A DNA stretch of 21,826 nt, from NCBI GenBank assembly GCA_038093975.1, contig JBBPTG010000349.1:1-21826 (forward strand), read 5' to 3'. The position numbers and the translations under genes were made by a program. This document shows, one piece after another, positions 3-21,826 of the stretch (within the stretch, counting starts at the first letter, position 1; every line of letters begins with the position of its first letter). The notes beneath the pieces were generated by a model that was not told where the DNA came from, ran no database searches, and worked only from the letters and a program-made list of their open reading frames with translations. The DNA comes from Chalciporus piperatus (taxonomy: Eukaryota > Basidiomycota > Agaricomycetes > Boletales > Boletaceae).

Positions 3-718
3 TTCGTACGTAAAAATCGAATCCCAACCACTCGACTTGAAACCCCCATTCGAGTTCGAAACGTCGACCAAACCGCAAACAAACGCGGAATGATACTCTT
101 CACCACCACCCTCTTCCTCGACATCGAAGGACTTGCGCAAGAAGTAACCTTCCACGTCATGAACTGCGGAAACGAAAACGTCATCCTAGGTCTCCCATGG
201 CTCGAAAAGGCTAACCCAATCATCGATTGGCGTCGACGAACCCTCTCACTATCAGAATCTATCGACGAGTCAAAAAGGTTATATGCTATGCACGCTTCAG
301 CCTGTAAAACCAATGACCGACTCTTCACTCGACCTACTCCTCCCCCTCGACACTCCTATGTAACCCCGGAGATCGACAAACAACTCTATGACTACCTAGA
401 TTCTGAAACCGAATCCACCTTCCTCAATCGCGCCTATGAAAACCATACCCTAAACCGCATCATTCGTTGCGGCTCACGCTTTGTCCCAAACCACGTTGTT
501 GCTCGCCTCACCAGAGCTACGGAACTTGCAATCGCAGCCGAGCTGGCCAAACCTAAATCTACCCTCCCGAGAGAATATGCCAAATACGCCTCGGTTTTTG
601 ACGAACCTTCGGCCGGCCACCTTCCTCCGTCTCGAATTTACGACCACGAGATTAACCTGAAGGAATCCTTCGTCCCCAAAATCGGGAAACTCTATCCGCT
701 ATCCCCAGACGAGAAAAA
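3..718 (+). CDS. pol: Element I pol, first segment: protease C-terminal part and linker to RT (partial)
   Basis: The frame is open from base 3 at the window edge, so the first in-frame ATG at 90 is not the real start. It reads the back half of a retropepsin domain: the segment [18 protein letters not shown] is the typical end of the fungal gypsy protease. The catalytic D-S/T-G lies outside the window. A linker of about 150 residues follows, then the start of the RT domain ([20 protein letters not shown], then [20 protein letters not shown]). Similarity to RT is lost at the A-run near 711-718, and reading onward in this frame stops at 854. The RT continues in the next frame from 719. The break equals one missing A. 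Confidence 0.85.
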
Positions 719-1882
719 GCCACAGAAGACTTCCTTGAAGAAAATCTTCGCACCGGAAAGATACGTCCTTCCAATTCCCCCCAAGCATCTCCCTTCTTCT
801 TTGTCAAAAAGAAAGACGGAAAACTCCGACCCTGTCAGGACTATCGATATCTGAATGAACACACTACCCGCGACGCCTACCCCCTTCCCCTTATTGGAGA
901 TCTCGTTGACAAACTCAAAGACGCTAAGATCTTCACCAAATTCGACGTACGATGGGGTTACAATAATGTCCGTATCAAAGACGGACACCAATGGAAAGCT
1001 GCCTTCCTCACTCACAAAGGCCTCTTTGAACCGACTGTGATGTTCTTTGGGCTGAACAACTCCCCGGCTACCTTCCAACGCTTCATGAACGACTCTTTTA
1101 GAGACATGATAGCTGAAGGATGGCTCGTCATCTATATGGACGACCTTCTCATCTTCTCCCCCGACGACACCACTCACACTGTTCACACCCAACGAGTTCT
1201 CGAGCGCATGCAGGAGCTAGATCTCCATCTTCGCTTGGAGAAATGCAACTTTGCCGTAAACGAGGTTGAATATCTCGGCATGATCGTCCGCCCAGGAGAG
1301 CTTGCCATGGATCCCATCAAACTCGACGGCATCTCTCAATGGCCCATCCCCTCCACCGTTAAGGAAGTTCGCTCATTCCTTGGCTTCGCCAACTTCTACC
1401 GACGTTTTATCCCAAACTACTCTTTGGTCGCTCGCCCTCTGATCGATCTAACCAAAAAGGACCATCGATGGGATTGGACCAATGCATGCCAAAATGCCTT
1501 CGCTCGCCTAAAACAGATGTTCTTGGCAAAACCCGTCCTGCGATTCCCTGACCTCTCCAAACCCTTCGCCATCGCGACTGATGCCTCCAAATTTGCCTCT
1601 GGAGGAATACTCCTCCAAACCGACGCCAACGGCGATTGGCATCCTTGTTCGTATCTCTCCCAGTCCTTCGGTGACGCAGAGCGAAATTACGATATTTACG
1701 ATCGTGAACTTCTTGCTGTCATTCGCGCACTAAAGACCTGGCGGCACTACCTCCATGGCTCCCCCTTCCCCGTCCAGGTGTTCACCGATCACAAAAACCT
1801 GACCTACTTTCGCCAACCCCAGAACCTGAACCGTCGGCAAGCCCGCTGGCTCCTTGACCTTGCCGACTTTGACTTAAAATGA
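719..1882 (+). CDS. pol: Element I pol, second segment: reverse transcriptase and RNase H
   Basis: This frame carries the RT fingers and palm: [20 protein letters not shown], then [12 protein letters not shown] with the first catalytic Asp, [16 protein letters not shown], and YMDD at about 1133-1144. The connection region ([17 protein letters not shown]) and RNase H follow, with its acidic residues in [33 protein letters not shown] and VFTDHKNL. All catalytic residues are present. There is no ATG before 1040, so it cannot be translated alone and must belong to the same polyprotein as the segment before it. It ends at a TGA that begins inside a run of four A's. One more A would run it straight into the integrase frame. 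Confidence 0.9.
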
Positions 1883-3513
1883 TCCACGTCCCTGGCTCGT
1901 CCCTCGCCGGTCCTGATGCCTTATCTAGGCGTGCTGATCACTTCCCCACTGACGCCGATGACAATGCGGGTACCACTCTGCTACCACCCTCGCTATTCGT
2001 CCGTGTCATTGACTCTGCGATGAACAATCACATCTCCAATCTTTCCAAGGACGACCCGTTTCTCCTCACGGCGTTACAGGCCATTGACGGTGACATCCCT
2101 GCACCTTTCCGCTCTAGACTGGCAGATTGGCAGATGACTAACGGCGTCCTGACCTATCAAGGTCGTGTCTACATCCCACCGGATGAAGACCTACGTCGCA
2201 CCGTAGTCCAACGATGCCATGATCATCCCACCGCCGGCCACCCTGGCTATCTCAAGACTCGGCAATTAGTCGCCGCTGAGTTTTGGTGGCCCGGACTTGC
2301 CCAATTCGTTCGCAAATACGTAGAAGGATGCGCAACTTGCCAACAGAATAAGGCAAACACACATCCAACCACCCCTCCTCTGATGCCAATACCCTCAAAG
2401 AGTTCTAAACCATTCCAACAAGTATCCTGTGATCTCATCACCGACCTACCCATTTCCAATGGCTTTGATTCTCTGTTGGTCGTGGTCGACCACGGGCTTA
2501 CAAAGGGGGTAATTCTTTGCCCTACCAAGAAAACCGTCACGGCCGAAGGGATCGCTTCCCTCTTTTTCCACAAAGTCTACTTAAGATTCGGTCTTTACGA
2601 CAAAATCATCAGTGACAGAGGACCACAATTCGCATCCGAATTCGCTCGTGAACTAGGACGAATCCTCGGATATGACCTTTCCCTTTCCACCGCCTATCAT
2701 CCCCAGTCTGATGGAGAAACTGAACGCGTCAACCAGGAAGTTGAGACTTACCTTCGAATCTATTGCGGAGATAACCCCATATCCTGGGCTGATTCCATTT
2801 CCCACGCAGAATTTGCACACAATCATCGGCCCCACTCTGTCACCGGCAAATCCCCGTTCTACCTCATGATGGGATATGAACCCCGTCCTCTTCCTGCGGT
2901 GATCGCCGATTCCGCATTACCCGCTGTCGAACTTCGTCTCCACTCTCTCACCGCTGCCAGAGACGAAGCGCTCGCCTCACACGAACTCGCCAGACAAGTG
3001 ATGGCTGCACGAACTCGACAGAAGTTCAAACCGTTCGCCAAAGGAGACAAAGTCTGGCTGGAAGCGAGGAACCTCAAACGATCCCTGACTTCCCCAAAGT
3101 TCGCCCCAAAACGGGAAGGACCCTTTACCATCACCCAAGTCCTATCTCCGCTATCCTACAGACTCCGTCTCCCACAGACGTGGAGAATTCACCCCGTGTT
3201 CCATGCTTCTCTGTTATCGCCCTATCGCGAAAACCCCGTCCACGGACCGAACTTTCCCGCTCCACCGCCTGACCTAATAGAAGGCGAAGAGGAATACGAA
3301 ATTGAAAGAATTCTCCGTCACCGAGGTTCTTCCGGGCGCCACTCGTACCTAGTCCGCTGGAAAGGATATTCTTCCGATGAAGACCGCTGGCTTAAAGAAG
3401 CAGACCTTACCCACGCCACAGAAGTCCTAGAAAACTATAAAAAAGCTCACCCGTCCGCCTTCCCCTCTTCCCCAAGATCCCCATCTTCTGTCAGACGCAA
3501 AACCCGCCGCTAA
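1879..3513 (+). CDS. pol: Element I pol, third segment: integrase with chromodomain
   Basis: The segment starts with the end of RNase H ([16 protein letters not shown]), so its ATG is an internal codon and not a true start. The integrase zinc domain has H114/H116, H121, C151 and C154. The core has D185 (SCDLITDLP), D246 (IISDRGPQF) and E282 ([12 protein letters not shown]), so the DDE triad is complete. A GPF-type C-terminal module follows (REGPFTI). Residues about 467-519 form a chromodomain ([24 protein letters not shown]), which in chromoviruses guides integration to modified chromatin. The tail is Ser/Pro/Arg rich. It ends with TAA only 4 nt before the next ORF. Confidence 0.92.
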
Positions 3514-5197: not shown

Positions 5198-5500
5198 ACG
5201 ACAAGGTGGATGAAGCTCGTCGTATGGCACCCGGATCTGAGCAAGTGGGACAATGTGATAGAGGAACAGCCAGAGAATCCTGATCAGCAGGAATGGCCTA
5301 CAAATTGGCCTGATCTCGCTGGGGCTCCTATTCCCGACCCTGCACTCGTAGGTGCTCCCCACCCTATCCCTGTCGATGAACACGATGGTAACCCATTCGA
5401 ACCACCAGTAACCTGGACAAACAACAATCTTCAGGTCGCTACTGCTCTGCCAGCAAATGGAGTACCGTGGATGAATCAAGGCCCACTCATCGAAATCTGA
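5198..5500 (+). pseudogene. ORF3 C-terminal fragment of Element II, cut by Element I
   Basis: This is about 100 codons ending in TGA, homologous to residues 89-188 of the ORF3 at 14598-15164. The start and both membrane segments were separated by the Element I insertion, so the open frame that appears to start at 5147 begins inside the Element I LTR. Compared with the other copy I count 10 synonymous and 6 amino-acid-changing codons over 98 codons, with no gap or stop. The chemistry is conserved: Trp-rich start (RWMKLVVWHPDLSKW), acidic Asn/Pro-rich middle, end in MNQGPL. The changes show that the frame was under constraint before the split. Confidence 0.85.
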
Positions 5501-5520
5501 TCGTCTAGGAATACGATCCA

Positions 5521-5534
5521 TAGAGAGGGGGTAG
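5521..5534 (+). other. Polypurine tract of the split Element II copy
   Basis: TAGAGAGGGGGTAG lies directly before the LTR start TGTTACGAACG and is identical to the tract of the other copy. Confidence 0.8.
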
Positions 5535-6010
5535 TGTTACGAACGCTCCATTCCTTATCCTAATCATCCCTACATTCCATTACGCTTACTAGGTTTCTCT
5601 TCGTTTCGTGGACTTAGTCATTTCACTTTCACTTTTGTTATCTTATCTTATCGCATCACATGACTTACTTACATAAGCTAGGTCTAGACCTTCGCTTACT
5701 AACTGATGACTCACCGCTCACTCATCAGCATCAGTCAGCATTACTCATCATATGACTCACGCTTACTCATTCCGCAGTAGAGCTAGTTACGCCATTGGCT
5801 AGTAGTCAGTATGAGTCATACCCAGTCACCTACGATAAGGTTTAACCACAACATGTACAAACATTGACAATAGTATATAAACCCGGGTCGACAAGCACTG
5901 GACTCCCCAGTCTTGTTCTCCTGGAGTTTCCTCATCGAACCTCAGCCAAGTACATCGGCTCGCTATTGTCTAGTGTGAGTCTTAGCTCTTAGTTGAGTTG
6001 AGTCGTTTCA
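5535..6010 (+). repeat. LTR of Element II, + strand copy (476 bp)
   Basis: It starts TGTTACGAACG and ends GAGTCGTTTCA. It has the same length as the LTR at 14088-14563, of which it is the reverse complement with scattered substitutions. TATATAAA lies at 5874-5881. The 11-mer AGTCTTGTTCT, predicted RNA 5' end and self-primer, is at 5909-5919, 35 nt below the first T of the TATA box, the same spacing as in the other copies. Confidence 0.93.
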
Positions 6011-6210: not shown

Positions 6211-6240
6211 TTAGGGCCCGTTCGGCAGCCTTCGTTTTGC

Positions 6241-6314
6241 GTCCGTTTTGTTTTGTTTGCGTCCGTTTTGTTTTGTTTGCGTCCGTTTTGTTTTGTTTGC
6301 GTCCGTTTTGTTTT
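6241..6314 (+). repeat. 20-bp perfect tandem repeat, 3.7 copies
   Basis: The unit GTCCGTTTTGTTTTGTTTGC starts at 6241, 6261, 6281 and 6301, the last copy cut to 14 bases. The copies are identical, so the expansion is recent. On the - strand it gives a meaningless KTDANKTKR-type peptide that extends the dead transposase frame. Confidence 0.95.
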
Positions 6315-7914: not shown

Positions 7915-8546
7915 CTAGGTTAGGGATCGGCTAGTAATAGAATGTACACATAGAGTAGGGATCAGCCAATGTACCATTGTGCCCTGGCAATGGGAATGGC
8001 CAACACAAAGGTTCCATGAGGTAGGACCTGGCCGACTGGTGCTAATCACCCAGTCCTGCCTGCATCAGGGTTCGGCCCATAGAGAATAGGGATAGGCCGA
8101 TGTGTAAACCCTCCATGTGTAGGGAGCGGCCGATGTAGGGAATGTTTAGGGGTGGGCATTGGCCAGTGAATTATGTCTCCTACAGCAGGCATGGTCTGAT
8201 AGATTGAGTGTCAATGGGTAGGGATGGGCTGATGCAATAATGTCTATCTGTAGGGATGGGCCGATGCAACCCGCCTCAGTAGGTAGGGATGGGCCGATGT
8301 ATAGTTTGTCGATGTGTAGTAATGGGCCAATGCAGTCATTTCAATGTGTAGGGATGGGCCAATGCATTGAGCCTCAATGCGTAGGAATGGGCTGATGCAA
8401 TCAGTGTCAATGTGTAGGGATGGGCCAATGGGTTGAGCCTCAATGCATAGGGATGGGCCGATGCAATCAGTGTCAATGTGTAGGAATGGGCCAATGGGTT
8501 GAGCCTCAATGCGTAGGGATGGGCCGATGCATTGAGCCTCAATGTG
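7915..8546. repeat. 33-bp minisatellite (TAGGGATGGGCCRATG family)
   Basis: The core TAGGGATGGGCCRATG recurs every 31-36 bp. The last six units, from about 8348 to 8546, are strictly 33 bp and alternate between a TTGAGCCTCAATG and an ATCAGTGTCAATG half, giving a partial 66-bp higher-order period. Units before 8218 are degenerate (e.g. near 7921, 7952, 8083, 8118). The 33-bp length keeps frame, so both strands show long repetitive open frames with no sign of real coding. The array ends exactly where the inverted-repeat unit at 8547 begins. Confidence 0.9.
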
Positions 8547-8572
8547 CATCAGGAAAAATGACCTATGCCATA
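8547..8572 (+). repeat. Left terminal inverted repeat
   Basis: It pairs with 10758-10783 at 24 of 26 positions. The two mismatches lie next to each other in the middle (TGAC against TACC). Confidence 0.7.
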
Positions 8573-8989: not shown

Positions 8990-10275
8990 AGGTGGTGGTG
9001 GGCAGACAGCCCTGAGCGGCTGCTAATGAGGTGAGTGGATGGGATGGTGGGTGAATTGGCAGTGAGCACTCACATTGTGATGCCAGCAGGGGCTGTTGAG
9101 CCCGCGCCGGCTTTGTTTTTCGACTGGACTCGGAGACTGAGGTGGTGGTGGTGCCAGTGGAAGGTGGTGGTAGGGCACACAGCCCGAGTGGCTGTAGACG
9201 AGGTGAGTGGATGAGTGGTGGGTGAGATTGTACTCACTTCGTGATACCAGCGGGGCTGTCAAGCCCACGCCGGCTGTGTTTTACTGTCGAGGGGTGGAGG
9301 TGGAAAGTGGGTGGTGGCTGCCACTGGCATGCACGAGCGAGGGTGAGGCAAGGTGAGTGGATGTGGTGGTGGTGGTGAGTAAAAACTCACATAGCAATGC
9401 AGGCGGGGCTGTTGAGCCCTTGCCGGCCATGTTTCTGGTAGGTCGTGGTGGATGTGGGGGGTGCTGGTGGCGAGCGCCTGTTTACGAGGTGAGTAGTGGT
9501 GGTGGTGGTGAGCGAGAACTCACCTGGTGACGCCGGCAAGGCTGTTGAGCCCACATCGGCCATGTTGTTTGAGGGTGAGTTGAGGTGAGGTAGTGGTGGG
9601 GTGGACAGCCCGACCGGCTGTGTTCGAGGTGAGTGGATGTGGTGGGGGTGAGTAAAAACTCACGGTCAAGGACTGGCTGGGCTGTTGAGCCCTCGCTGGC
9701 CGTTTTGTTCGTGTTCGAGTCGAAGATGAGGGTGAGGTGGTGGTGGGGCAAACACCCTGAGTGGCTGTTGGCAAGGTGAGAGGTGGTGATGGTGAGTGAA
9801 AAAATACAAACATTGTGATGCCGGCGGGGCTGTTGAGCCCACACCGGCTGTTTTGTTTGAGTTTGAGTCGAAGGTGAGGGTGAGGGTGGTGGTGGGGCAA
9901 ACAGCTGGAGTGGCTGTTGGCAAGGTGAGCGGGTGGGTCGGTAGGTAAGTAAAAGCTTACCTTCGACAGCCGGCGGGGCTGTTGAGCCCTCACCGGCTGT
10001 ATTGCTGCTGTTGATGTGTCAAGTTTGAGGTGGGAGGTGGGAACTTTTGAGCCCTCACCAGCATTATTGTTGTGTTGTGGTTGAAGTAGTGGTGGTGGGA
10101 TGACAAGGTGAGCGGTTGGGTTCAAAAAGTGAGTAAAACCTGCAATGCTTGTCTTTCCCAATAAGGAAATTGCGTAAATATGCAATTTTCTTATTGGGAA
10201 AGACACTACATAGCACATTAAGAGGTGAGCGCACTTACCTTGTAATGCCACCAGGCTGTTGAGCCCATGCCGGCT
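8990..10275. repeat. Tandem units of 130-165 bp with two conserved hairpins
   Basis: The core GGGGCTGTTGAGCCC recurs near 9088, 9251, 9405, 9536, 9674, 9822, 9971 and 10250, with a partial copy near 10036. Each core forms GGGCT-GTTG-AGCCC. In several units an outer GCCGG/CCGGC pair extends the stem, e.g. 9820-9848. About 20-40 bp before each core is a second hairpin of GTGAGT...ACTCAC type (9375-9390, 9648-9663). The unit at 9944-9961 has GGTAAG...CTTACC instead, which keeps the pairing by changes on both arms. Spacers are GGTGGTGG rich. The - strand shows His/Pro/Ser-rich open frames that simply follow the repeats. Confidence 0.85.
10151..10204. repeat. 54-bp near-perfect palindrome
   Basis: The arm 10151-10173 (GTCTTTCCCAATAAGG...) and the arm 10182-10204 are inverted copies over 23 bp with one mismatch, around an 8-nt AT-rich loop. 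It interrupts a tandem unit: unit-like sequence (GTGAGTAAAACC) lies left and GAGGTGAGCGCACTTACC right. It may be a tiny foldback insertion. Confidence 0.85.
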
Positions 10276-10433
10276 ATGTTGCTGTTGCTGTACTGTAGAT
10301 TGAGGTAGGATAGAATGTTAGATAGTAGTAGTACTAAAAGACTCAAAACAATGTGGGCGTGTCAAGTTCAACATGGTCATGTGACCTGCTTGCATGAATT
10401 TTTCTAAGTCTAAGCATTAGAGAAATAAGGCTA

Positions 10434-14087: not shown

Positions 14088-14563
14088 TGAAACGACTCAA
14101 CTCAACTAAGAGCTAAGACTCACACTAGACAATAGCGAGCCGATGAACTTGGCTGAGGTTCGATGAGGAAACTCCAGGAGAACAAGACTGGGGAGTCCAG
14201 TGCTTGTCAACCCGGGTTTATATACTATTGGCAGTGTTTGTACATGTTGTGGCTAAACCTTATTGTAGGTGACTGGGTATGACTCATACTGACTACTAGC
14301 CAATGGCGTAACTAGCTCTACTACGGAATGAGTAAGCGTGAGTCATATGATGAGTAATGCTGACTGATGCTGACGAGTGAGCGGTGAGTCATCAGTTAGT
14401 AAGCGAAGGTCTAGACCTAGCTTATGTAAGTAAGTCACGTGATGCGATAAGATAAGATAACAAAAGAGAAAGTGAAACGACTAAGTCCACGAAACGAAGA
14501 GAAACCTAGTAAGCGTAATGGAATGTAGGGATGATTAGGATAAGGAATGAAGCGTTCGTAACA
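14088..14563 (-). repeat. 3' LTR of Element II (476 bp)
   Basis: Sense strand starts TGTTACGAACG at 14563 and ends GTCGTTTCA at 14088. It has a TATA box at 14217-14224 and the self-primer 11-mer at 14179-14189. It matches 5535-6010 (reverse complement) along its length and 21585-21826 where visible. Confidence 0.96.
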
Positions 14564-14577
14564 CTACCCCCTCTCTA
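14564..14577 (-). other. Polypurine tract of Element II
   Basis: The sense strand reads TAGAGAGGGGGTAG directly before the 3' LTR. It is identical in the copy at 5521-5534. Confidence 0.85.
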
Positions 14578-14597
14578 TGGATCGTATTCCTAGACGA

Positions 14598-15164
14598 TCA
14601 AACTTCGACGAGTGGACCTTGATTCATCCACGGTACTCCATTTGCTGGCGGAGCAGTAGCGACCTGAAGGTTGTTGTTCGTCCAGGTCACTGGTGGCTCG
14701 AATGGGTTACCATCGTTTTCGTCGACAGGAATAGGGTGGGGAGCACCTACGAGTGCTGGGTCGGGAATAGGAGCCTCAGCGAGATCAGGCCAATTTGTGG
14801 GCCATTCCTGCTGATCAGGATTCTCCTGCTGTTCCTCTATCACATTGTCCCACTTGCTCAAATCCGGGTGCCATACGACGAGCTTCATCCACCTTGTCGT
14901 CCAGTCCCAGTTAACCTCGATAGACGTGGACCGTCTGGTCACGATCATGTGAGCGAACATTAGATATTGAATGGCGACGGTGACGACGACGATGGAGATG
15001 AAGGCGATGAGGGAGGGGATGAGCATGCGGAGAATCCAACCGTTGCAGATGACGAAGAGTATAAAGAGGAGGGAGAGGACGAAGTTTCCTCGATCCCTAG
15101 TGAAGTTGCGAATGAATATGTCGCGGAGGATATTCTCCCAAGCATAGACGTCGTTGAGATCCAT
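14598..15164 (-). CDS. ORF3: two-helix membrane protein downstream of pol (env position), 188 aa
   Basis: It starts with a true ATG 64 nt after the pol stop and ends 20 nt before the polypurine tract. Residues 1-27 are polar, without a classical signal peptide. Residues about 28-45 and 48-72 are strongly hydrophobic (FVLSLLFILFVICNGWIL; then MLIPSLIAFISIVVVTVAI) and likely form a helical hairpin with both ends on the same side. The remaining 115 residues are soluble, Trp/Pro/Asn rich and acidic. The part shared with 5198-5500 shows 10 synonymous against 6 replacement codons, a sign of purifying selection. I do not recognise a family. It lacks the length, furin-like site or glycosylation pattern of an envelope protein. 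How it is translated is unclear: I saw no good splice acceptor just upstream. Confidence 0.85.
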   Translation of the reverse strand: MDLNDVYAWENILRDIFIRNFTRDRGNFVLSLLFILFVICNGWILRMLIPSLIAFISIVVVTVAIQYLMFAHMIVTRRSTSIEVNWDWTTRWMKLVVWHPDLSKWDNVIEEQQENPDQQEWPTNWPDLAEAPIPDPALVGAPHPIPVDENDGNPFEPPVTWTNNNLQVATAPPANGVPWMNQGPLVEV

Positions 15165-15228: not shown

Positions 15229-18200
15229 TTATACCTTTTCGGTATCCGGCACGGTATTCAACCAATTCACTTGTCCATCATCCACGTGACTCGTTAGGTT
15301 GTCATACGGCTGGAACAGTGACTCGAATAGACTCCGTGACATGCGAAGGAATCGTGGTGCGGACAGATGTATCTTGTTGAATTCCCTTATTGCATCCTGT
15401 GCATTCTTGAGATTCGATCTCGGTTCCCATGTCCGATCAGATTCCGCATAGCCTTTCCAGTGCACGAGGTATTTCAGGGTTTTCCCCTGTAAGCGAGAAT
15501 CAACAATGTAATCCACCTCATATTCATCATCTCTGTCTTCTGTCACAATTACAGGCCCAGGCTTATCAACGGTTTGCTTCCGTAACCTGTCCTTATATGG
15601 TTTGACACGTGAAACATTAACGACGGGGTGAATTTTCATGGTACGCGGAAGCTTCAAACGTAGTGCGTTCCGTCCAATCAGGGTTATGATTTCGTAAGGA
15701 CCCAACCATCGTGGGGAAAGTTTCTTAGATCTCTGCGCCAGGCGGAGATTAGCTGTAGATAACCAGACTTTCTGACCAATTTCGTAAGATGGCGATTCAG
15801 AGCGGTGTTTGTCAGCTTGCGCTTTCATACGCTTCTGAGCTTCTATTATGTTATCCTTGGTTTCTTTCAACGTGTTGGCGAGTGTGTCGACAAAGTCCGT
15901 AGCAGCTGGTGCTTTAGACGTGTAATTCTCTATTCCCATTCTTGGAGAATATGTGTGCGTGACGTTGAAAGGTGCCTTAGATGTAGAAGCTTGCTTCTTC
16001 GAGTTATATGAGAATTGCGCAATTGGCAACCAATCAGTCCATTCTTCTTGTTTTTCTGACGTAAATAGGCGGAGATACTGTTGTAGATCTTGATTCATAC
16101 GTTCAGTTTGTCCATCAGTCTGTGGATGAAAGGCGGTGGAGAGTTTGGGCGTAATGCCAAGACGTTTGCATATGTCTTTCATCACTTGGGATGCGAATTG
16201 CGGACCTCGGTCCGATATGATGGTTTTAGGAAGTCCATGATGTTTCCACACATGGGTTAGGTAAAGACGAGCGGTGTCGAGAGCGGTGACCGTCTTGTTA
16301 CAGGGAATGAATTCGACTTCTTTGGAGAATCTGTCAACGACGACAAGAATAGAATCGAATCCATTCGAGAGTGGCAGATCGGTAGTGAAATCTGCAGAGA
16401 TATGTTCCCAGGGAAGATCCGGAACTTCGAGGGGACGGAGTTTTCCAGAAGGAGCATAGTTTATCCCTTTGAAACGTGCACATCTGTCACAGCGTGAGAC
16501 GTAGTCTTTTACGAGCGTAGCCATTCCTGGCCATGTGTAACTGCGCTGTAGCAGTTCAATTGTCTTTTCGTATCCGGGATGTCCAGCTACGGGCGTGTCG
16601 TGATGAAGTCGAATAATCTCCATGCGGAGATCTTCTTCTTCAGGAACATACAACCTTCCTTTCTTGTCAATCAGAATTCCATCAGACTCTTCACAAATGC
16701 CGTGTTCTTTACAGAGTTTCATGACTTCTGTTTCACGTATTTTGAAGGTTGCTTTTCTGATTTTATTCTTGATCAGATCGGAATCGGTTGAGAGTTGAAC
16801 AGTTGACGTGGCAGCTATTCTGTCCGGAGGTATTACAAGGACAGCTTTGTTATCTGCTTCGATACCGATTGCGTGATCTTCTCTTCTTGATAAGGCATCA
16901 GCTTTTCCCATTTGGGAACCTGCCTTATGTAACCATTTGAAATTGAATCGGCTAAGATATTGAGACCAACGTGCTTGGCAACGATTTAGATCTTGCCGAG
17001 TCATGAAGAACTGAAGGTTCGCGTGATCGTTCCAGATTTCAAATTCGTGCTTAGAACCTTCCAGATAATGTCTCCATTGTTCTAGACTTCTGATAACGCT
17101 TAGCATCTCTTTATCCGCAATGGGGTAGTTGCGTTCTTCCGGTGACATGGAGTGGGAAGAGAACACGACGGGATGCCATTTGTCTTCTTGTTCTATAGAT
17201 AGAACAGCACCCGTGGCGTAATTAGATGCGTCCGATTCTAGACGGAAGCGTTTGTCATTGTCTGGGAAAGCGAGTATGGGCGCGGTGATGAACCTCTGTT
17301 TCAAGGTGTTGAAAGCGTTCTTTTGCGCATCTTCCCATGCAAATTTCACATCCTTCTTGGTAAGGTCATTCAAGGGTCTAGCCACTTGAGCGTAATCTTG
17401 AATGAAACGGCGATAGAAGTTTGCTAGTCCAAGGAAGCTTCTGACACCTCTGACATTTGTCGGAGTTGGCCATTCGGTGATTGCCTTGACCTTATCGTCG
17501 TCCATTCTGATTCCCTCGGGAGTAATTGTCATTCCCAAGAATTCTACTTCTTTGGTATGGAAGACACATTTCTCTGGTTTGACGAAAAGGTCATTCTCTT
17601 CTAGGCGACGAAGAACTTCTCTGACTATTTTGGCATGGACAGCAGGGTCGTCGGATTTGGTAAAGATCATGATGTCATCAATGTAGACAACAACGGCGTC
17701 TTCCATATCCGAGAAGATGTCGTTCATCATGGTTTGGAATGTTGCAGGAGAATTGCATAATCCGAAGTACATGACTAAGGGTTCGAAGGCGCCACGGAAG
17801 CATACAAATGCGGCTTTAGATTCATCACCTTCTTTGATGCGGATGTTGTTGTATCCCCAGCGCAAGTCCATTTTGGTAAACAGTTTTGCGCCTTTCAGTT
17901 TATCAACCAATTGGGAAATGAGAGGTAGCGGATAATTGTTTTTCACCGTGTGTTCATTCAGATAACGGTAATCTTGAACCATGCGTTTCTTGCCGTCTTT
18001 CTTAGGGACGAAAAACACGGGAGAAGTCTGCTCAGATTTGGAAGGACGAATGTACCCTTTCTTGAGCTGATCATCAATGAACGCGCTGACTTCTTCTTGT
18101 TCCGTGACAGAGAGTGGGATAAGACGACCCTTTTTCGGCTTGTAGGTGTCTTTCAGGTCAATTGCATGATCCCACGGCTTTCGGGTTGGCATGCGTTCAG

Positions 18201-18957
18201 ATTCCTTTTTCTTGAACAGGTGAATATACTTGTGATATTCTTTTGGAACAAGCTCTTCTGGAGTCTTTTCCATTTTTGGTTCAGGTGCCTCCCTCTTTGC
18301 GGCGTTGATGTGACGAAGAGAATTTCGTTCTTCATCATCAAGTTGGCGTGCAAACGGTGGTTTATCTCGTAAAACGGAACAAGACCAAGGACAACGCGTC
18401 ATGTGGACCGTTCCTTTATTCCAATCTATTTCCGGATTGTGTTGCTTCAGCCATGCGTATCCTAGTATCACCTGATTCTTTCCGAGATCAGTGACTTCCG
18501 CAATGGCCTTCTCACGATGTCCGTTGAAATGGATAATGATTTCCGCACAGTGTGTTATCTGTCCAGCGGAGTTATGTGTTCCGTCCACGTTGTATACCGT
18601 AAGTGGGTGTCTGAGTTGCACGAGGGGTAATTTGATTTTATCAGCCCATCTCCGATCAACGAAGATAGCGTTAGCTCCTGAATCAAGAAGTGCTTCTGCT
18701 CGTGTGAAAGCAGAAGGGAGTCGTTGCGAAGCGATGGAAGTAGATAGCTTCAATTCTCGATCCGTCGTGCGAATGAAACGTGGTCCTGGGTTTTCGGAAA
18801 GATATCGGATTATGGAAACGGAATTAAGCACCTGACTAGAGTCCAGGCCAAGCTCATGATCAACATGAGACCCCGTTTGACTGTGTGAATAGTTTACAGT
18901 TTTTCCTAACGAGTTAGTTGCGGTCCGTTTGCCCAGATCATTCAGGCCGCTTTGCCT
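15229..18957 (-). CDS. pol: Element II pol: protease, RT, RNase H, integrase, chromodomain
   Basis: One intact frame. The only start-like codon is GTG at 18831, but the frame stays open upstream through the gag end, so pol is expected as a Gag-Pol fusion by -1 frameshift at 18957-18963. Numbering from 18831: protease LLDSGANAIFVD (D50); RT with D322 (KMDLRWGYNN) and YIDD at 383-386; RNase H with D534, E575, D602 and D645; integrase zinc site H743/H744, H751, C781, C784; DDE core D814, D874, E910; GPY module near 1044; chromodomain about 1103-1153 (DEYEVDYIVDS, LVHWKGY, DRTWEPRSNL). No catalytic residue is missing. The domain set places it with Tf1/sushi-type chromoviruses, which fits the self-priming signal. 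Confidence 0.96.
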   Translation of the reverse strand, partial: RQSGLNDLGKRTATNSLGKTVNYSHSQTGSHVDHELGLDSSQVLNSVSIIRYLSENPGPRFIRTTDRELKLSTSIASQRLPSAFTRAEALLDSGANAIFVDRRWADKIKLPLVQLRHPLTVYNVDGTHNSAGQITHCAEIIIHFNGHREKAIAEVTDLGKNQVILGYAWLKQHNPEIDWNKGTVHMTRCPWSCSVLRDKPPFARQLDDEERNSLRHINAAKREAPEPKMEKTPEELVPKEYHKYIHLFKKKESERMPTRKPWDHAIDLKDTYKPKKGRLIPLSVTEQEEVSAFIDDQLKKGYIRPSKSEQTSPVFFVPKKDGKKRMVQDYRYLNEHTVKNNYPLPLISQLVDKLKGAKLFTKMDLRWGYNNIRIKEGDESKAAFVCFRGAFEPLVMYFGLCNSPATFQTMMNDIFSDMEDAVVVYIDDIMIFTKSDDPAVHAKIVREVLRRLEENDLFVKPEKCVFHTKEVEFLGMTITPEGIRMDDDKVKAITEWPTPTNVRGVRSFLGLANFYRRFIQDYAQVARPLNDLTKKDVKFAWEDAQKNAFNTLKQRFITAPILAFPDNDKRFRLESDASNYATGAVLSIEQEDKWHPVVFSSHSMSPEERNYPIADKEMLSVIRSLEQWRHYLEGSKHEFEIWNDHANLQFFMTRQDLNRCQARWSQYLSRFNFKWLHKAGSQMGKADALSRREDHAIGIEADNKAVLVIPPDRIAATSTVQLSTDSDLIKNKIRKATFKIRETEVMKLCKEHGICEESDGILIDKKGRLYVPEEEDLRMEIIRLHHDTPVAGHPGYEKTIELLQRSYTWPGMATLVKDYVSRCDRCARFKGINYAPSGKLRPLEVPDLPWEHISADFTTDLPLSNGFDSILVVVDRFSKEVEFIPCNKTVTALDTARLYLTHVWKHHGLPKTIISDRGPQFASQVMKDICKRLGITPKLSTAFHPQTDGQTERMNQDLQQYLRLFTSEKQEEWTDWLPIAQFSYNSKKQASTSKAPFNVTHTYSPRMGIENYTSKAPAATDFVDTLANTLKETKDNIIEAQKRMKAQADKHRSESPSYEIGQKVWLSTANLRLAQRSKKLSPRWLGPYEIITLIGRNALRLKLPRTMKIHPVVNVSRVKPYKDRLRKQTVDKPGPVIVTEDRDDEYEVDYIVDSRLQGKTLKYLVHWKGYAESDRTWEPRSNLKNAQDAIREFNKIHLSAPRFLRMSRSLFESLFQPYDNLTSHVDDGQVNWLNTVPDTEKV

Positions 18958-18963
18958 TTTCCC
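18920..18963 (-). promoter_or_regulatory. Candidate programmed -1 frameshift signal at the gag-pol junction
   Basis: In the gag frame the sense strand reads G-GGA-AAA (18963-18957), the X-XXY-YYZ slippery pattern. After a 6-nt spacer (GGCAAA), GCGGCC (18950-18945) pairs with GGACCGC (18926-18920) with one bulged base, around an 18-nt loop that holds the gag stop. pol is in the -1 frame and open on both sides. All three parts of a classical -1 signal are therefore present at the right place. The stem is short, so efficiency cannot be judged. Confidence 0.65.
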
Positions 18964-20144
18964 TTCATTTCGATGTCTTTCATATCGTAGAAATAAGCCT
19001 TCATTTCGTCGAATGAACGGCCTTCAAGAGCACTAGATTCAGTAGACAGTTCTCTCACCTGTCTCTTCTGAAGTTTGCAGGCATGTTTGTGTTCGCCTCG
19101 TGACCAACCACAATTCTTGCATTTGGTACTGGGCACCGGACATTGTTGCTTTGGATGTCCCGGTTTCCCACAGTTCCAGCAATTTCCTTGTTTCTTTTCT
19201 TTGGAATTGCTTGTGGCCGCCTTTACGACAGATGATGCTTCTTCTTCTTCTTCCACAATTTCTCCTTCTTCGACTTCGGCAGAACCTATATCCATTGGGG
19301 CACCACGACCCGGTTGTGTGCCCGTGTTGGTATATTTATATCGCGAGGTATCACCTGCGGTTCCTGTCTTGATCATGGAGATAAGCTGCTTCCTTCCTGC
19401 AAGGAGGCGTAGTTCTTCGACGTATGTGTCATATTTGTCGAACCGTCCCTTATCCATAAAGATCCGATGCGTGATCTCTGGATCTGCATTTAGTTCTAGA
19501 AGTTCGATGTGTCTCGCGTCACTCCAATCGTCCATAAGGCGATGAGTCTGGAACGTGGTAAGGAATTTCTCCATAGACATCTTGCCCTGTTTCAGATTCT
19601 TGATCTGATTGCGGTGGTATTCCACTTCGTTACCCGAGCGGAATTGATCGGTGATTCGTTTATGGAACTCGGCGGAAGTATACGTGGTTCCATTTTCCAA
19701 GATGTCATGTGTCATGGCTCGTGAGAAAGTGGCGGCGTCTCCTCCTGTCATTCGACTAAGGATAGCTCTGATCGCCGTCATTCCGGTTAACACGGTATTG
19801 TTTTCATCTATCCATGCACGGACTCTTGTCCACCATTCTTCGAATTTCCTTCCTCTAGATCCGTCATAGTCTCCTGGGTCTTTGACGATTTTGGATAGCT
19901 TAGGTCCGCTAGGTCCGACCGTAGGGGCTGGTATGGCACCAGGCACTTGAATGGCTTGTACTTGCGCTTCAAGCTGCAAGATATTATTGTTTAGGTTTTG
20001 ATTTACCCTTTGAGCGTTGGTAAGCTGATCCGTCATGGTTTCTAACGCGAGTCTCAACTGTGTTCCAAGATCCCGTATGGACGCGTCACGATGTCCGAGA
20101 ATGCCTGTTAAGGCAGCTGCTAAGTCTGGGGCGAGAACCGACAT
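18942..20144 (-). CDS. gag: Element II gag: capsid and double zinc-knuckle nucleocapsid, 400 aa
   Basis: The ATG at 20144 is the first ATG in any frame of the predicted genomic RNA. Residues 30-65 are a likely coiled coil. Residues about 95-240 match the retrotransposon Gag/capsid pattern (FEEWWTRVRAWI, FHKRITDQFR, LKQGKMSMEKFLTTFQTH). An acidic stretch at 290-303 precedes two zinc knuckles: C322-C325-H330-C335 (CX2CX4HX4C) and C342-C345-H352-C356 (CX2CX6HX3C). The protein should form the virus-like particle and bind the RNA. The stop at 18942 lies in the loop of the frameshift hairpin; pol follows in the -1 frame. The paired knuckles have nearly the same spacing as the 3' ORF of Element I. 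Confidence 0.95.
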   Translation of the reverse strand: MSVLAPDLAAALTGILGHRDASIRDLGTQLRLALETMTDQLTNAQRVNQNLNNNILQLEAQVQAIQVPGAIPAPTVGPSGPKLSKIVKDPGDYDGSRGRKFEEWWTRVRAWIDENNTVLTGMTAIRAILSRMTGGDAATFSRAMTHDILENGTTYTSAEFHKRITDQFRSGNEVEYHRNQIKNLKQGKMSMEKFLTTFQTHRLMDDWSDARHIELLELNADPEITHRIFMDKGRFDKYDTYVEELRLLAGRKQLISMIKTGTAGDTSRYKYTNTGTQPGRGAPMDIGSAEVEEGEIVEEEEEASSVVKAATSNSKEKKQGNCWNCGKPGHPKQQCPVPSTKCKNCGWSRGEHKHACKLQKRQVRELSTESSALEGRSFDEMKAYFYDMKDIEMKGKGKAA

Positions 20145-20185: not shown

Positions 20186-21500
20186 TCAGATCTCCTGAGA
20201 TCCTTCAAGGGTTTCTCCTGATAACGAAGCAGGGGCGTCTCTTTGATAAGGTGGCGGTGGAATACTTCTTCTGATGGAATGGGGCGCGGGGTAGTAAAGT
20301 TGCACTCCTGGTGCGTTTGTCTCTCTTAGTCCTCCTTCGTCTTCACTATCTGATTCTACTAATCCTGGTACCGATTCTCTGTCCTCTTCTAACTCTGCTT
20401 GTGATACAACAGGGGAAAGGGGAGGAGTAGGTGGTGCTACTGGGCGAATCCTGTGAGATACGAGAATATATGCGAAGTCAAAGGTAACGCGACGGTCGCT
20501 TGAGAGAATTTCGTGGCCGAAGATGAGGTATGAAAGAAACAGGAAGGCCTGTAAGCTGTACTGGACGAATCTTCCTAAGGGGTACAAGAGGCTTATGGCA
20601 GCGAGTGCGGCGAGTAGGACGCGGGGTTGGTACTCTCTCCTTAATACGTACACCGGCGTCCTCTGGGATACCTCTAAGTAGCCTGTCGCTTCGTCTGCGT
20701 TGACGTACCCGATCGTCAATGTTCTCTCGAATCGCCTTCTCTCCTGACGGTGATATAAGCGTGTGATAGATAGCGCTACGGAAACTTTGCGTACGACCAG
20801 AGACTCCAAGGGGAAATCTGTGTTGAAGAGCAAGAATATCCTCGTCGACGGTGGTCCAATCAACGGGCTCCGCGAGCGGGGTTGGGGCTCTGGGGATGGA
20901 GGAGGCACGATAGTATAACTCTTCAACGCCGAAGGCGTCGGCTAATATCTGCTGGGGGTTGGGCGGCAACGGTGCCCGAATAGCCTCGATGGGAGGGAGC
21001 GACGGAAGTCGACGAGTGCCGATCTGGAGATTGACGGGATGATGAGGTAACCGAAGGGTACCGAGAGGGTGAATGTAAACCTCAGAAGGTAGATGGTATG
21101 GGTAGGAGGGAATTACCGGAGGTTCCAACCAATCAACGTAGAGATCCGAATAGTCTGGCTCTGGGACTATCGGCGCTGAGTACTTCTCAATGGTCTCCCT
21201 TTGTCTTTCAGCGTGTAACGCCTGAGTACGAGCGTAGTCTTCCTGGACACGAGCGTTCTCTCGCTCAAGGTCGTCGATGATGCTGGTGAAGCCGGGGACG
21301 ACCTCTACAGCTCGTTCGAGGTTTCTGATGACGCTGGCGAAGTCGAGATTGTTCTCGACGGCGGGGAGATCAAGTATACCGTTCCACTGGATGGAAGGTA
21401 CAGGGGACGCGGCGCGCTGAGATGCGGCGGGGTTGCTCGACACTTATTCAAAAACAAGGTCAGCGATGACGAGGCGCGAACAAGCAGCGCAGTACCCACT
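20186..21500 (-). CDS. ORF1: spliced leader gene for a coiled-coil, two-helix membrane protein (403 aa predicted)
   Basis: Two long open frames overlap here (20478-21443 and 20186-20926) and neither has an ATG. Removing two introns joins them: exon 1 ends at 21500, exon 2 is 20709-21442, exon 3 is 20186-20662. The coding length is 1212 nt including the stop, an exact multiple of three. The start codon is formed at the first junction in a strong context (CACA before ATG). Residues about 52-88 form a coiled coil (SIIDDLERENARVQEDYART). Residues 90-200 are Pro-rich. Residues about 259-293 contain two hydrophobic segments (VLLAALAAISLLYPLG; VQYSLQAFLFLSYLIFG). The tail is Pro-rich and acidic. Apart from the initiator there is no Met. 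I do not recognise a family. ORF1 ends 41 nt before gag. The first splice and the frame join are predictions. Confidence 0.6.
20663..20708 (-). other. Predicted intron 2 of ORF1 (46 nt)
   Basis: The donor is GTACGT, the optimal fungal form, and the acceptor is CCCAG. Removal joins the frame ending ...ENIDDR to the frame starting RTPVYVLRRE in phase 0. The branch site is weak (CTTAG, about 12 nt from the acceptor) and 46 nt is near the lower limit for fungal introns. Confidence 0.45.
21443..21499 (-). other. Predicted intron 1 of the leader (57 nt), creates the ORF1 AUG
   Basis: Donor GTGGGT (21499-21494) fits GTRNGT. GCTGAC (21464-21459) is an ideal branch site, 17 nt from the acceptor, with a T-rich stretch between. 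The acceptor is AAG, a weak form. Exon 1 ends in ...CACAA and exon 2 starts TGTCGAGC, so the junction spells ATG with A at -3. In unspliced RNA a TAA precedes the frame and no AUG exists. Confidence 0.65.
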
Positions 21501-21571
21501 TGTGATCAACGATGGAGTGGCGTACAAGACACGTGTGGTAGCGACGAGACGCTAAGACAAAAGAAAATATT

Positions 21572-21582
21572 AGTCTTGTTCT
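21572..21582 (-). other. Primer binding site, self-priming type
   Basis: Sense strand AGAACAAGACT starts 2 nt after the 5' LTR. It is the exact 11-nt reverse complement of AGTCTTGTTCT at 21686-21676 in the LTR, which lies 35 nt below the TATA box at the expected RNA start. It does not begin with TGG as tRNA-primed sites do. Tf1 of fission yeast primes with the first 11 nt of its own RNA in the same way. Confidence 0.8.
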
Positions 21583-21584
21583 AA

Positions 21585-21826
21585 TGAAACGACTCAACTC
21601 AACTAAGAGCTAAGACTCACACTAGACAATAGCGAGCCGATGTGCTTGGCTGAGGTTCGATGAGGAAACTCCAGGAGAACAAGACTGGGGAGTCCAGTGC
21701 TTGTCGACCCGGGTTTATATACTATTGTCAATGTTTGTACATGTTGTGGCTAAACCTTATCGTAGGTGACTGGGTATGACTCATACTGACTACTAACCAA
21801 TGGCGTAACTAGCTCTACTGCGGAAT
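21585..21826 (-). repeat. 5' LTR of Element II, right part outside window (242 of about 476 bp)
   Basis: It ends GTCGTTTCA at 21585 (sense). It carries the TATA box TATATAAA at 21721-21714 and the predicted RNA start near 21686. It differs from the 3' LTR at 8 of 242 positions by my count, several of them CpG to TpG/CpA. U3 continues past the right edge. Confidence 0.95.

Follow-up and report, generated by a model that had tools for sequence, protein, structure and literature searches.

The minus strand of contig JBBPTG010000349.1 from Chalciporus piperatus carries, from 21826 to 14088, a Ty3/gypsy chromovirus recognized by the Pfam matches between its long terminal repeats (LTRs). The contig, which was analysed over its whole length of 21,826 nucleotides (nt) and is called the window here, belongs to assembly GCA_038093975.1 (35.5 Mb, 484 contigs). 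We consider it probable that the leader of this self-priming element contains two introns by which a single transcript gives rise to two RNA species. An RNA left unspliced would keep the primer-binding site, would have the start codon of gag as its first AUG, and could serve both as genome and as message for Gag-Pol. A spliced one would have lost the primer-binding site with the first intron (intron A), and hence the capacity for self-priming; its first AUG would be assembled as A/UG across the junction of the second intron (intron B), making it the message for an open reading frame, ORF1, that lies upstream of gag. The proposal supposes that the RNA starts where predicted below, that both introns are spliced, that ORF1 is translated from the spliced RNA, and that enough RNA stays unspliced. 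The features concerned are the following, with slashes marking splice junctions.

21676..21686, minus strand: putative 5'-terminal 11 nt of the element RNA (AGTCTTGTTCT), placed by the Tf1 rule and complementary without mismatch to the primer-binding site in 44 of 46 rows
21572..21582, minus strand: self-priming primer-binding site AGAACAAGACT, within intron A (46 of 47 rows)
21552..21620, minus strand: predicted intron A (69 nt), GTGAGT...CTRAT...TTTTCTTTTGTCTTAG, from the unique 5' region (U5) across the primer-binding site (conserved; strict consensus)
21500..21551, minus strand: exon 2 (52 nt), its last base the A of the split start codon (aligned rows)
21443..21499, minus strand: predicted intron B (57 nt), GTGGGT...GCTGAC...AAG (sequence and aligned rows)
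21441..21500, minus strand: split start codon, A at 21500 plus TG at 21442-21441 (AG/TG in 47 of 47 rows, A with an intact donor in 46 of 47)
20478..21443, minus strand: ORF1 frame (f1), 321 codons, no genomic ATG (synonymous bias, P 5e-17; C-terminus alike in the divergent copy L079)
20186..20941, minus strand: frame f2, 251 codons, +1 relative to f1, no ATG, with a hydrophobic stretch and PPPY (selection; similarity to L079)
18942..20144, minus strand: gag, its ATG at 20144 being the first AUG of the predicted unspliced RNA (ORF list, Pfam, ATG scan)

Of these elements of the proposal, the sequences themselves show the splice-site signals, how well they are kept, the lack of ATG, and selection on ORF1. 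The alignment has 48 rows, comprising the window copy, 38 more of the 40 loci (L040 omitted) and nine more divergent copies. Letters at intron B are present in 47 of the rows (L038 has none). The genome as a whole gave 86 listed matches, some of which are fragments.

Two predicted leader introns and a split start codon

On the minus strand, intron B reads CACAA/GTGGGT...GCTGAC...GAATAAG/TGTCG, the branch A being 17 nt from the 3' end of the intron. The initial annotation had described a 57-nt intron with donor GTGGGT, branch GCTGAC and acceptor AAG, and had claimed that CACAA and TGTCG join to an ATG opening a 321-codon frame; both descriptions are accurate, the intron lying at 21499-21443. 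The spliced ATG, which has an A at position -3, stands where the stop-to-stop frame 21443-20478 would otherwise open with GTG. The donor is GTGGGT in 45 rows, GTAGGT in one and broken in one, and the branch is GCTGAC in 46 of 47 rows and ACTGAC in the other. Nine intron B sites vary in at least two rows, and all nine lie outside the donor hexamer, CTGAC and AAG. The AAG acceptor claimed for the intron is correct for the window copy and does not extend to L079, which has CAG. Related copies, which the initial annotation had proposed as a check, keep the A/TG junction in 46 of 47 rows; of 43 full copies, the frame behind it is open in 35 and broken in 8.

Across the genome, the donor plus acceptor motif occurs at 61 places, compared with none for the reversed motif; among 18 matches inspected letter by letter, one (C1) is unlike the element. 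We searched for AUG-creating introns (A/GTRNGT, CTRAY, AG/TG, 45-120 nt) with criteria set after intron B had been seen. Such introns occurred 18 times in 2,000 shuffled leaders, in no case opening at least 100 codons, and were absent from four control strands (about 38 kb in total). Because the criteria were post hoc and shuffling destroys long frames, about 0.9% per leader is the fairer estimate of the chance of the junction alone.

Intron A, which the initial annotation missed, is the more canonical of the two and encloses the whole primer-binding site. In the window it reads GTGAGT...CTAAT...TTTTCTTTTGTCTTAG, with the branch 18 nt before its end. Donor and acceptor are kept in 45 of 47 rows; L079 has GTAAGT...CCCTAG, and L078 is broken. 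Among copies, the intron varies most at the R of CTRAY (36 rows with A, 8 with G and 2 with C). It is the only intron in the leader that conforms to the strict consensus, under criteria chosen after it had been seen; these gave 0.01 introns per shuffled leader and none on the four control strands. The intron A junction creates no ATG. RNA spliced here could not self-prime, since the primer-binding site is removed, and the two-fate idea is therefore strengthened by the prediction of this intron. Taken together, the leader donors GTGAGT at 21620 and GTGGGT at 21499 are each present in 45 of 45 rows when L078, in which both are broken, and L079, with GTAAGT and GTAGGT, are set aside. The element thus has the conserved donor in the LTR or leader by which we judged retrovirus-like regulated splicing.

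In Tf1, the first 11 nt of the RNA are complementary to the primer-binding site (PMC7175516). Here the primer-binding site begins two bases past the LTR end, and an 11-nt complementarity of the same kind places the start of the element RNA, we infer, at 21686. In the Tf1/sushi group, RNase H cuts after nucleotide 11 and the 5' fragment serves as primer. The complementary pair can also be read in L079, and the complementarity over 11 nt agrees with Tf1/sushi self-priming as far as the predicted RNA 5' end is correct.

From this predicted start to the gag ATG at 20144 (1,542 nt), ATG is the only trinucleotide missing, which agrees with the claim of the initial annotation that unspliced RNA has no AUG before gag. 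Dinucleotide shuffles of the leader (2,000) contained a mean of 10.9 ATGs and a minimum of 2, and gag-pol has 31.7 per same length. ATGs at 21742 and 21784 lie upstream of the predicted RNA start. The leader is free of ATG in 34 of the 44 copies counted (5 of the 44 incomplete), and the remaining 10 have 13 ATGs at 11 sites, one common to three copies and the others single; the count omitted L072, L073, L078 and L079, which have 7 to 23 ATGs. Codon-order shuffles of f1 alone gave a mean of 5.7 and a minimum of 0, so the avoidance of ATG is strong over the leader as a whole and less striking within one frame.

In f2, the divergent relative L079 (C19) shows about 41% identity. Its counterpart of intron A, GTAAGT...TTAAC...CCCTAG, is 70 nt long, and that of intron B, A/GTAGGT...CTGAC...CAG/TG, is 53 nt long. 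Exon 2 is 57% identical between the two, with lengths of 52 and 68 nt; donor, branch, acceptor and A/TG are nonetheless kept. There is no ATG from the RNA start to the spliced ATG of L079, and the frame after its junction has a weak likeness to the start of ORF1 (E 0.009). Further on L079 is decayed, with 23 ATGs over the aligned stretch.

ORF1 and the overlapping frame f2

Variants present in at least two copies indicate purifying selection on ORF1. Between 21437 and 20942, 122 of 216 variants are synonymous in f1, compared with 62.6 expected (P 5e-17; the test adds two windows that share one site). The gaps common to at least two rows in the coding stretch measure 3, 45, 6, 3, 3 and 24 nt, all multiples of three (39 rows), and outside it gaps of 1 and 2 nt are common. 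Some of these multiple-of-three patterns are insertions in few rows, and single-row gaps of 7 and 17 nt exist. The C-terminus of f1 is identical to that of L079 at 17 of 38 positions (E 4e-7, single comparison). Around residues 245-257 ORF1 is rich in arginine, and it has no Pfam match. Its single-sequence structure model, with a predicted local distance difference test score (pLDDT) of 50, was not used.

The second frame, f2, also absent from the initial annotation, overlaps ORF1 by about 460 nt and is open in 41 of 43 full copies. In the part that is f2 only (20477-20192), 62 of 94 variants found in at least two copies are synonymous, compared with 28.3 expected (P 9e-13). Among variants silent in one frame only, those silent in f1 predominate upstream of 20853 (131 versus 41), those silent in f2 from 20852 to 20630 (33 versus 14), and those silent in f1 again near the f1 end, at 20584-20540 (14 versus 3). 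For the change at 20853 the Fisher P is 1.4e-8, an optimistic value, since the same data served to place the break. In the overlap, fewer changes than expected affect both frames at once (25 of 141, compared with 50.2, P 4e-6). We conclude from these substitution patterns that f1 and f2 are both coding, with constraint on f2 setting in near 20853. The similarity of f2 to L079 gave E values of 1e-12 and 4e-10 in single comparisons. The f2 product would have one hydrophobic stretch, and a PPxY motif is present in 41 of 44 rows and in L079.

Protein searches with ORF1 and f2 returned no relative outside this genome. In addition, f2 had no match among viral contigs or prokaryote genome contigs, collections in which ORF1 was not queried, and gag had none among viral contigs. 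ORF1 is a gene without a genomic ATG, of a kind that gene finders would miss, and the empty protein searches may follow from this.

The connection between f2 and ORF1 is probably a +1 shift near 20853, or else some other route; our first guess for its production is +1 frameshifting and our second a non-AUG start. Several specific candidates were rejected. For a third intron joining f1 to f2, there are 27 conserved GT/AG pairs of suitable length (1 mod 3), none with a branch-like sequence at the chosen distance. The GTACGT donor at 20708, with a 46-nt intron, reads ATACGT in 9 of 46 rows, though f2 is open in 41 of 43. The window copy has no second A/TG acceptor for f2 between 20941 and 20346. 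CTTAGAG as a +1 slip site is unproven and is lacking in L072 and L073, and the changes just after GTG 20908, a candidate f2 start, mostly alter f2.

Alternative explanations and known systems

The interpretation of the initial annotation is supported in part: conservation and frame-specific selection fit the spliced AUG, the ATG-free leader and the two RNA fates that it envisaged, and inefficient splicing and a binary switch are its further proposals. Several observations weigh against this reading. Neither the AAG acceptor nor the GTGGGT donor of intron B is strong, and an alternative acceptor at 21436 for the same donor yields no ATG. The branch of intron A reads CTCAT in 2 of 47 rows. Introns found under generic criteria number 0.44 per shuffled leader and 7 on one of the four control strands. 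In the comparison with L079, introns A and B are 77% and 69% identical, more than exon 2, so they may conserve features other than the splice signals, although the LTR end and the primer-binding site lie within intron A anyway. L079 is also the sole really divergent relative, comes from the same genome, and is decayed. Intron B does not explain f2. Finally, the spliced-junction motif occurs with one mismatch at 20 places, compared with one for the reversed motif; letters were inspected for three, and all 20 are taken as unrelated because none adjoins an ORF1 match. In favour of the proposal, a search of the assembly with one 15-nt motif found no exact copy of the spliced junction, as would be expected if spliced RNA is not reverse transcribed.

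The intron-like sites could have arisen by chance in a leader whose conservation serves RNA structure, packaging or priming. There is little variation in the first part of the leader, the primer-binding site is itself constrained, and both the frequency of generic introns in shuffles and the better conservation of the introns than of exon 2 in L079 are compatible with such an origin. We nevertheless consider it highly improbable, given that two independent introns keep donor and acceptor in L079 at altered lengths (69 and 70 nt, 57 and 53 nt) and that one junction makes an AUG opening a selected frame of about 320 codons. A scarcely more probable explanation is that the introns are real and ORF1 is made mainly from a non-AUG start in unspliced RNA, the A/TG junction being a by-product. 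It has in its favour that f2 is selected without having any AUG, so that some unconventional mode of translation, one or more, is probably at work in this element; the exact A/TG junction is kept in L079, however, despite the divergence of exon 2.

Leaky scanning would make a switch unnecessary. The leader would be spliced nearly always, ribosomes on the spliced RNA that bypass the ORF1 AUG would scan on and make Gag, and only a small unspliced fraction would be the genome. There is again no ATG between the spliced AUG and gag, so the ATG-free leader suits leaky scanning equally well, but avoidance of ATG requires no leakage as its cause if Gag is translated from unspliced RNA. An A at -3 is a good start-codon context, and low leakage is therefore expected from the spliced AUG. 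On balance we think leaky scanning unlikely. A further idea, still doubtful though somewhat less so, elaborates on the two-fate proposal by treating the leader introns as a commitment device, under which any one RNA could be either ORF1 message or genome; ORF1, with its arginine-rich stretch, would be a regulatory protein and an exporter of unspliced RNA resembling Rev or CERV, and the frameshifted ORF1-f2 product its membrane-bound partner.

Parts of the leader have parallels in known elements. The Tf1/sushi self-priming elements (fission yeast Tf1, with Tcn1 proposed) are likewise Ty3/gypsy elements with complementarity of 11 nt between RNA and primer-binding site; the present element differs from their description in its 1.5-kb leader, two predicted introns and two overlapping frames before gag (PMC7175516). 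The springer subclade, in the infectious gypsy group of Drosophila, is a likely precedent for a start codon at a splice junction, the completion of the codon there being deduced (PMC12992720). Its spliced gene is env, whereas here the frame lies 5' of gag, the codon is split A/UG, and the element is a fungal chromovirus. Foamy viruses join a donor to distant acceptors for downstream genes; intron A here is 69 nt long and ends just past the primer-binding site. The major foamy virus donor is in the repeated (R) region of the LTR (PMC5035957), and that of intron A is likewise in the LTR. The spliced RNAs of foamy viruses would therefore lack the primer-binding site.

Cer1 of Caenorhabditis elegans is an LTR retrotransposon that produces an accessory protein, CERV, from spliced RNA, and CERV is required for export of unspliced genomic RNA (PMC10309623). 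CERV exons 1-3 are in the gag reading frame, whereas ORF1 is wholly upstream of gag. BARE of barley keeps the RNA that it translates apart from the RNA that it replicates, and one of the two pools is spliced (PMC3735527); its splicing removes 104 nt at the end of gag, and a different promoter drives the replicating RNA. In a survey of fungal gypsy elements, most had one or two ORFs, and some had an additional ORF of unknown function (PMC2864245). We found no fungal element with such a leader, judging by titles and the beginnings of abstracts, most subscription papers being outside our reach.

It has long been asked how a retroelement allots a single transcript to both translation and replication. 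If the two-fate proposal is right, this division is encoded in two short introns, the primer site being removed and a start codon made in the same RNA. Retrovirus-like splicing logic would then extend to fungal chromoviruses, and the leader would be a compact test system.

The element, its relatives and the rest of the window

The remaining parts of the element are as follows.

21585..21826, minus strand: 3' part of the 5' LTR, cut by the contig end at 21826 (matches the 3' LTR at 233 of 243 aligned positions)
15229..19023, minus strand: pol frame, with protease, reverse transcriptase, RNase H, integrase and chromodomain (Pfam)
14598..15164, minus strand: ORF3, with a hydrophobic N-terminal part, between pol and the 3' LTR (98 genome matches, many weak)
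14088..14563, minus strand: 3' LTR (TGTTACGAAC...GTCGTTTCA; repeat comparison and sequence reading)

The Pfam order of protease, reverse transcriptase, RNase H, integrase and chromodomain is that of a Ty3/gypsy chromovirus. ORF3 is hydrophobic and matches no envelope family in Pfam. Its weak matches, at about 31-39% identity, belong to another large group in the genome. Near ORF3 there is a CTAAC...CAAG/TG site ending at 15270.

Two leaders of the family, in L005 and L006, are near-identical (1703 of 1706 bases), which suggests recent activity or duplication. A second family in the same genome has a gag that is about 50% identical. The pol search yielded 6,691 relatives among 7,962 scored; of the best 120 of the 6,691, those named include Lyophyllum, Pisolithus, Agaricus and Phellinidium, along with mixed other names. 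Together with the style of the introns, these names would suggest a basidiomycete host. One pol that is 75% identical over the searched part (P0004) is on a 5.4-kb contig labelled as a Neobacillus assembly, and is probably fungal contamination of a bacterial record.

Elsewhere in the window, another chromovirus pol, in the opposite orientation and broken over several frames, occupies 3-3510 on the plus strand. A fragment of the same family as the element, consisting of the ORF3 end and an LTR, is found at 5198-6010 on the plus strand and is 96% complementary to 14088-14900. A 20-nt repeat lies at 6236-6314, and repeat arrays lie at 8143-8562 and 9084-10281, with spacings of 33 nt and about 133-163 nt. 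A near-perfect hairpin at 10150-10205 has 27-nt arms separated by a 2-nt gap.
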